Assembly (NCBI GenBank): GCA_018969615.1
Contig: JAGWYA010000007.1
Location: 1 to 39,275, forward strand
Length of the DNA stretch: 39,275 bases
DNA from: Patescibacteria group bacterium
GTDB taxonomy: Bacteria; Patescibacteriota; Minisyncoccia; UBA6257; 02-FULL-45-10c
Reading direction: 5' to 3'
The position numbers and the translations under genes were made by a program. Every line of letters starts with the position of its first letter. Position 1 is the first letter of the stretch. The notes under the pieces were generated by a model, which worked only from the letters and a program-made list of their open reading frames with translations, ran no database searches and was not told where the DNA came from. Shown here in pieces: positions 12,079-29,986 of the stretch.

Positions 12079-12720
12079 CTACCAGTAGTAGGCGAGGCTC
12101 AGTTTGGGAATCCAGCCGTCTGCTTGAAAGAATGCCCCCTGCTTCGGCGTCGTCTTGGTGCTCATCGCGATGGACTGAGCCTCCACTCCGTCATCGAAGC
12201 TCACGACCAATGCAGACGCGATTCTGTCCGAATCAGGCGACTTCCAGCCTTTCACCTTCCAGTCGATGCCGAAATTCCAATCCGCCATGGCCGCAAATGG
12301 AGCCTGGTCGTACATGCTGCTCACCTTGGATGCCGGCCCCATGGCGAAGCTGAAAAATGTGTGCCAGCCGATCGGCCAGCGCTTCGGGTCCTCGAACGTG
12401 TTGGAGTAGTAGCCGAGCCCGAAGCCTCCGCCGATGAAATTGAGTTTGCCGCGCGGGGTGCTAAAGCGGCGCGCGCGGAGAAGGAGGCCGTACGTAAGAT
12501 GGAGGAACCGTTTGTGGAACATCCAGTTGAGATCGAGCCCCCTCACGGTGTCACGGTCCTGGCTTACCTGCTTTCCGTTCGCGTCCAGCGTCTCTTGGGT
12601 GCGCCCGAGAGCGAAGCCGAGCCCCAGGGACTCACGCCGCGAATACGCGGCGTGCACCGGAGCCGCAAGGCCCACGCTCAGGAGCCAGAACGCTCCGAAC
12701 CAACGGAATACCTTCCGCAT
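12079..12720 (-). CDS. Secreted beta-barrel-like protein 1 (hypothetical)
   Basis: A 213-residue protein with a clear signal peptide (hydrophobic residues 8-20, A-x-A-type end PVHAA). The mature part alternates polar and hydrophobic residues, is rich in glycine and aromatic residues (FIGGGFGLGYYSNTF), and ends in an aromatic residue (LSLAYYW), as outer-membrane beta-barrel proteins do. No enzyme motif is seen. A GGGAGGGGG box precedes ATG 12720. It forms a pair with the next upstream gene, which has the same layout. An outer-membrane protein is unexpected if the host belongs to the Candidate Phyla Radiation, so these two genes may come from a Gram-negative donor. The function is unknown. Confidence 0.65.
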   Translation of the reverse strand: MRKVFRWFGAFWLLSVGLAAPVHAAYSRRESLGLGFALGRTQETLDANGKQVSQDRDTVRGLDLNWMFHKRFLHLTYGLLLRARRFSTPRGKLNFIGGGFGLGYYSNTFEDPKRWPIGWHTFFSFAMGPASKVSSMYDQAPFAAMADWNFGIDWKVKGWKSPDSDRIASALVVSFDDGVEAQSIAMSTKTTPKQGAFFQADGWIPKLSLAYYW

Positions 12721-29108: not shown

Positions 29109-29483
29109 TTATCCGAAGAGCCGCTTGATCCAAGATCTCTTTTTCTGGAAACCCAGAAGCGAGTGAGGTTTTTCTGAGAGATGGTCTTTGGCGAGCAGGA
29201 GAAGGCGGCGCCTTTCTTCTTCCACGGTCGCGCCTTCATATTCGCCGCTGTGCGCCGAGCTTCCTTCATAGCTCGGCTTTTTCATGTCCAAATGCATGCT
29301 GATCATTGTTTCTCCGTTCGCATTTTCAAGATAGATGTGAAAGCGGGGATAGAAGCGTCCCGGATCAAGGCTCCGTGCATAGCTGATCTCATCATTCTTA
29401 TGCGGGTTATGGATCTCGATATAGCTGCAGGTCCGCAGGAAGTATTGTGGAGAAACGGAAAGTTTTGGGATAGTGAATCGCAT
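29109..29483 (-). CDS. Hypothetical soluble protein
   Basis: A 124-residue protein with a beta-rich N-terminal half (FRTCSYIEIHNP, RFYPRFHIYLEN, ETMISMHLDMK) and a helical, basic C-terminus (EEERRRLLLLAKDHL...WIKRLFG). It has no signal peptide or known motif. It is divergent from the DUF456 gene, with only 14 bp between the two start codons. Confidence 0.7.
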   Translation of the reverse strand: MRFTIPKLSVSPQYFLRTCSYIEIHNPHKNDEISYARSLDPGRFYPRFHIYLENANGETMISMHLDMKKPSYEGSSAHSGEYEGATVEEERRRLLLLAKDHLSEKPHSLLGFQKKRSWIKRLFG

Positions 29484-29497
29484 GATATGATAATACT
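29484..29497. promoter_or_regulatory. Overlapping divergent leaderless promoters in 14 bp
   Basis: The whole gap between two start codons is GATATGATAATACT. On the plus strand TATGAT (29486-29491) is 6 nt before ATG 29498. On the minus strand TATTAT (29495-29490) is 6 nt before ATG 29483. The two boxes share two base pairs (29490-29491), so only one polymerase can bind at a time. Any -35 boxes must lie inside the opposite gene. Confidence 0.7.
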
Positions 29498-29986
29498 ATG
29501 ACAGGAGAAGTGCTTTTATTGATCTTCGCGTTTGCGCTGGTTGTCAGCGGATTGGTTGTCGGGATCGCGGTGCCGATCCTGCCGGGCGTACCCATGGCAT
29601 GGCTCGGCATGGTCTTATTCGCGTACGCGACGCATTTTGCGGTCATTACCTGGCGCACCCTTCTTCTTTTTTTGGTATTTGTCATTGTAGCACTCCTCAT
29701 CGATTTTGTCGCACCGCTGATCGGCGCGCGACGGTACCATGCGAGCAAGTATGGTCTTTATGGAGCGGGGCTTGGCGTTCTGTTTGGGATGGTGCTGTTG
29801 GGTCCGATCGGTATTTTGATCGGCCCTGCTGCCGGCGCGGTTATCGGCGAGCTTGCTTACGGCAAGGAGCCTGACGAGGCCATCGAATCCTCAAAAGGAG
29901 CCTTACTTGGCTTTTTGGCGGGAAGCCTGATCAAGTTCGTCCTTATTTTGGTCATGCTTGGCTTTATGCTTTCTGCTCTTTTTTAA
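29498..29986 (+). CDS. DUF456 family membrane protein
   Basis: A 162-residue protein with about five membrane helices. Family marks are VPILPGVPMAWLG, DFVAPLIGARRYHASKYGLYGAGLG, GPIGILIGPAAGAVIGELAYGK and GALLGFLAGSLIKF. DUF456 proteins are common small membrane proteins without a firm function. It starts at ATG 29498, 6 nt after a TATGAT box. Confidence 0.88.
   Translation: MTGEVLLLIFAFALVVSGLVVGIAVPILPGVPMAWLGMVLFAYATHFAVITWRTLLLFLVFVIVALLIDFVAPLIGARRYHASKYGLYGAGLGVLFGMVLLGPIGILIGPAAGAVIGELAYGKEPDEAIESSKGALLGFLAGSLIKFVLILVMLGFMLSALF

Follow-up and report, generated by a model that had tools for sequence, protein, structure and literature searches.

A predicted 14-bp bidirectional promoter for two divergent leaderless genes in a Patescibacterium

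Bidirectional promoters with reciprocal -10 elements were reported by Warman et al. 2021, as described in PMC12825309 and PMC10268837. Their start sites lie 7 to 25 bp apart, 18 bp being the commonest spacing and 10 and 23 bp being frequent (PMC10268837, PMC12825309); the 23-bp spacing is known from E. coli. At the bidirectional promoters of E. coli, opposed polymerases cannot occupy the site together, and these promoters exhibit low basal activity and only slight interference unless one direction is activated (PMC12825309). Many bacteria have TA-led leaderless genes, whose TANNNT motif, with its first T approximately 12 bp before the start codon, is taken as a -10 box that yields a leaderless mRNA (Zheng et al. 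2011, PMC3160421). Leaderless genes find no mention in PMC12825309 or PMC10268837. Our literature search turned up no paper dealing with leaderless genes of Patescibacteria or Parcubacteria, which is weak evidence because the subscription literature lay mostly outside the search.

The window, i.e., the whole 39,275-nucleotide stretch of DNA analyzed here (contig JAGWYA010000007.1), belongs to a Patescibacterium genome (G000) of 807 kb in 14 contigs, with 53% GC and 97% completeness, whose nearest named relatives are Harrisonbacteria and Patescibacteria group bacterium. Gene calling by hexamer statistics identified 777 genes; contig C4 was used without its last 115 bases, and 2986 bases, equal to the length of contig C12, were read as N. 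The minus-strand gene P1 (29109-29483) and the plus-strand gene P2 (29498-29986) are separated by a gap of 14 bp (29484-29497), and a direct read of the plus strand at 29481-29500 gives CAT GATATGATAATACT ATG. Both putative -10 elements lie inside the gap. On the plus strand, TATGAT (29486-29491) is followed by the six nucleotides AATACT and the P2 start codon (29498-29500), and is assigned as the P2 -10 element from its sequence and the genome-wide peak at 6 nt described below. On the minus strand, the six nucleotides CATATC separate TATTAT (29495-29490) from the P1 start codon (29483-29481). The two hexamers have positions 29490-29491 in common, so that the 2-bp overlap and the 6-nt distance to each ATG given in the preliminary description of the locus are exact. 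The resulting interlocked 10-mer, TATGATAATA (29486-29495), has the pattern TATNATNATA, which is also found in relatives. With a 14-bp gap and 6-nt spacers, the boxes necessarily occupy gap positions 3-8 and 7-12, so that the terminal AT of one box falls on that of the other; AT is its own complement.

P2 encodes a 162-aa DUF456 (PF04306) membrane protein (E=1.2e-36), scoring 126.5 bits against the profile, where the gathering cut-off is 29.4 bits. P1 encodes a 124-aa conserved Patescibacteria protein (FYPRFHxY...AHSGEYEG) without a Pfam family. The ATGs previously taken as start codons both open real genes. The first methionine of P1 is invariant in all 14 aligned sequences, the next in-frame start codon being 59 codons downstream (29306). 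The P2 starts of ten genomes align, and no conserved extension precedes them; the start codon is GTG in two of the ten and lies one codon earlier in G008. We rejected GTG 29510, which follows AGGAG with a 2-nt spacer, as another possible start of P2, because at this position most relatives have isoleucine rather than a start codon and because Gly-Glu (GGA GAA) is common in the family. The P1 family is uncharacterized and widespread in Patescibacteria, with 181 matching stretches in an alignment-based search of genome contigs; a search of the contigs with the P1 sequence alone gave no matches, whereas the P1-family alignment did. The predicted structure of P1 (mean pLDDT 78) has no PDB match at E<=0.001.

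We consider it probable, on the strength of sequence comparisons, that the 14 bp constitute a bidirectional sigma70-type (housekeeping) promoter for two leaderless mRNAs, those of P1 and P2. RNA polymerase would bind the interlocked TATNATNATA in either orientation and, with a normal 6-nt spacer, would begin each transcript at the A of the respective ATG, in one orientation at 29498 for P2 and in the other at 29483 for P1. Both mRNAs would thus be leaderless, and their translation would begin at a 5' AUG with no Shine-Dalgarno site. Overlapping -10 elements on opposite strands, a feature of bidirectional sigma70-type promoters, are present and are kept in relatives, and the first T of the box is at -12 for both genes, as in the TANNNT motif of TA-led leaderless genes. 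The start sites predicted from the box positions are 15 bp apart, within the 7 to 25 bp of the bidirectional class; it follows that the boxes share their last AT and that the A with which one gene begins is, on the other strand, T-15 of the opposite promoter. In the commonest bidirectional form the start sites are 18 bp apart and -7 coincides with -11, whereas at P1/P2 the predicted spacing is 15 bp and position -7 on either strand faces -8 on the opposite one.

It had been proposed that upstream promoter parts lie within the opposite coding region. This is true geometrically, but a search for -35 elements on both sides detected none that is convincing, the best being a 3/6 match for P1 and a 4/6 match at a poor spacer for P2. 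Instead of a good -35, the P2 side has the TG of an extended -10 element (TGn) at 29483-29484 on the plus strand, a dinucleotide that is enriched at -15/-14 in the leaderless class described below. The T of this TG is the complement of the A in the P1 start codon. The extended -10 element may replace the missing -35 of P2.

The 6-nt distance is not peculiar to this locus. Among the 178 genes of G000 that follow a divergent neighbor, 24 have TANNNT at a distance of exactly 6 nt from the start codon; the other offsets compared, up to 40, average 5.7 such genes and reach 12 at most (Poisson tail ~9e-9). The more stringent TATNAT is found at 6 nt in six of these 178 genes and in zero to two at other offsets. 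We then picked 76 G000 genes solely on TANNNT at 6 nt; the positions that were not selected display T-10 in 62%, A-9 in 72%, T-15 in 58% and G-14 in 46%, a pyrimidine at -1 in 89% and an ATG start in 95%, so the inner bases resemble TATAAT, and there is a weak T-rich spot near -35. Judged by these sequence features, the TANNNT-at-6-nt genes of G000 are a real leaderless class. A Shine-Dalgarno signal is also found in many G000 genes, and the genome is therefore mixed. In the relative G007 the TANNNT peak is again at 6 nt (24/128 genes, background 7.8). In the very AT-rich genome G047 (25% GC) the peak is not clear, with 14 genes versus 16 and 14 at other offsets, and the leaderless signal is thus established for G000 and G007 only. 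Among the 89 divergent pairs of G000, P1/P2 is the sole case of two interlocked 6-nt boxes. Another divergent pair of G000, at C4:12201-12216, is likewise separated by 14 bp (GGTATACTGTACAT) and has a 6-nt box on the plus side only; its minus gene may in fact begin at 12162, where TATACT and 6 nt precede it.

In 11 genomes of the family the P1 and DUF456 genes form a head-to-head pair. A 14-bp gap is present in G000 (GATATGATAATACT), G007 (GTTATTATTATAAT) and G006 (GCTATCATTATAGC), with 6 nt to both starts in each, and these three share TATNATNATA although the other bases vary. Conservation in relatives, proposed earlier as a check of the 14 bp, is therefore borne out, gap and TATNATNATA being kept together in three genera, two of which have GTG starts. 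In a fourth genus the TATNATNATA layout survives behind an extra ATG-TAA: G009 retains the whole 20-mer, CATAGTATAATAATACTATG, but its P1-side ATG runs straight into TAA and P1 starts 15 nt downstream. This stretch (G009:C15:4861-4893) is either a start-stop pair before P1 or an assembly error. The gap is 16 bp in G008 and 20 bp in G002, where the boxes still overlap, and is longer in others. With G000 included, 8/9 of the P2-bearing genomes examined have the P2 box at 6 nt, and 6/10 genomes examined have the P1 box there. The P1 side of G008, G003 and G012 has moved off the 6-nt spacing and shows longer leaders or a site resembling Shine-Dalgarno, so having both genes leaderless is not a fixed state. 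A tree of the two proteins does not unite the 14-bp genomes in a single clade, although its inner branches are weakly supported; the tree fits either an ancestral 14-bp state with later loosening or repeated gain. In G001:C27, the only listed genus mate, the P1 box TATAAT is kept at 6 nt with an unrelated gene opposite, and the DUF456 gene was not found when looked for in that genome. A further tight divergent pair in G007 (C1:419256-419279) has a 22-bp gap and boxes that share their first TA, with predicted start sites 23 bp apart.

These comparisons bear on the alternative that the 14 bp drive one gene only, the other gene having a leader and a promoter within the opposite coding region, and its box being a by-product of near-symmetry. 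The -10 hexamer is indeed nearly symmetric (PMC10268837), and several relatives have 6 nt on a single side. Both boxes are nevertheless at exactly 6 nt in G000, G006 and G007, and the double layout is also found between unrelated gene pairs. Viral contigs were used as a further source, the first 80 matches listed per pattern serving as samples and an ORF being at least 45 aa. Among the matches listed, an ORF begins at 69/160 ATGs of the 14-bp layout versus 48/480 ATGs of the 12-, 16- and 18-bp layouts (Fisher p ~1e-18), and ORFs are present on both sides in 6/80 versus 4/240 (p ~0.02); the 22-bp layout, which also places the boxes 6 nt before each ATG, with start sites 23 bp apart, gave 5/79 among the matches listed. 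Most of the 14-bp viral matches listed serve one ORF, 57/80 being one-sided and six two-sided, a point in favor of single-gene use, and the six two-sided sites compare with approximately 15 expected from the one-sided rates among the matches listed. The 6-nt rule is thus a strong signal, but two-sidedness itself is not favored in viral contigs. Taking both sides of this evidence together, we regard service to one gene alone as unlikely at P1/P2, and favor the bidirectional promoter.

At the viral-contig loci L255-L334 and L615-L693, an ATG preceded by TATNAT at exactly 6 nt is an ORF start much more frequently than an ATG at other spacings, which suggests from sequence that environmental viruses commonly have leaderless genes. 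One viral pair, a glycosyltransferase family 8 gene and a gene for an unknown protein, has the 14-bp double box in two different contigs (L274:293-1533 and L328); the 10-mer TATAATTATA is identical in both while the flanking bases vary, and a PHROGs search with this pair returned nothing.

A 14-bp gap could also happen to contain two TATA-like words by chance. The genus mate G001, with another partner gene and gap, accords with such an accident, as do two of the seven matches to CATNNTATNATNATANNATG in the 244 genomes of the order, where there are short ORFs only. This order-wide search covered ATG starts and perfect boxes only. Four of the seven matches, P1/P2 included, precisely fill the space from one ORF to its divergent neighbor, and one more is the G009 locus. 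The other three pairs consist of a ComF-like gene and PilM in G224, KsgA and a 50-aa ORF in G184, and, in G047, a 221-aa ORF and a gene that is pilin-like by inspection, without a Pfam match. In the same 244 genomes the reversed CATNNTATNATNATANNATG pattern gave no matches, the 16-bp version gave two and the 12-bp version none. This contrast between versions, together with the 53% GC of the genome, the 6-nt offset peak and the conservation across other genera, makes coincidence a very improbable explanation. The ComF-like and PilM genes are head to head in most genomes of their own family, with gaps of at least 14 bp and TATNATNATA in several. Equally improbable is that the near-palindromic 20-mer serves as the operator of a protein regulating both genes, with promoters elsewhere, for although CATNNTATNATNATANNATG is palindromic in form, its two ATGs and its pair of TATNAT boxes account for the symmetry, conservation falls on exactly the bases of the -10 elements, and the layout also occurs between unrelated genes. 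Recurrence in related bacteria makes the P1/P2 layout look like a real and very compact version of the known two-way promoter.

The proposal that two divergent leaderless genes share one promoter is accordingly well supported by the 6-nt peak, the conservation and the start codons, as a prediction from sequence. The further statement that only one direction can fire at a time is physically reasonable. Since opposed polymerases cannot both bind the bidirectional promoters of E. coli, mutual exclusion at P1/P2 is likely in the physical sense by analogy, with the site holding a single polymerase. In E. coli, however, basal activity is low and interference slight (PMC12825309), so that an either/or regulatory switch is not implied. 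The description of the site as close to the smallest possible divergent promoter was overstated, because start-site pairs 7 to 10 bp apart have been reported (PMC10268837, PMC12825309); it holds for the P1/P2 layout within the order, where there is no 12-bp case, and not in general. We advance only tentatively, as a doubtful extension, the idea that bacteria with leaderless genes possess a separate bidirectional promoter class, the 20-bp module CAT-NN-TATNATNATA-NN-ATG, in which forced either/or firing balances the two genes. Were this true, start codons and promoter would share bases, start sites would be 15 bp apart and the footprint would be shared.

Like the bidirectional promoters of Warman et al. 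2021, as these are described in PMC12825309 and PMC10268837, P1/P2 has interlocked -10 elements on opposite strands, a predicted start-site spacing (15 bp) within 7 to 25 bp and, presumably, a polymerase that faces one way at a time. In those descriptions the promoters prefer 18, 10 and 23 bp, whereas 15 bp is predicted here, and P1/P2 departs from that class in that its boxes overlap by the final AT and its predicted products are mRNAs of conserved genes, both predicted to be leaderless. With the TA-led genes of PMC3160421 it shares the first T of TANNNT at -12; those genes are described one by one, and the word 'divergent' is absent from that paper, which does not treat shared divergent boxes. 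The 15-bp spacing fits the definition of a bidirectional promoter but not the usual optima, and TA-led genes are already known, which together argue that P1/P2 is a compact variant of the known bidirectional promoters. It joins leaderless genes and bidirectional promoters in the most compact form found in this analysis, and suggests that leaderless expression is regularly used in uncultured Patescibacteria. The 20-bp sequence is directly testable for the choice of orientation by the polymerase and for leaderless translation.
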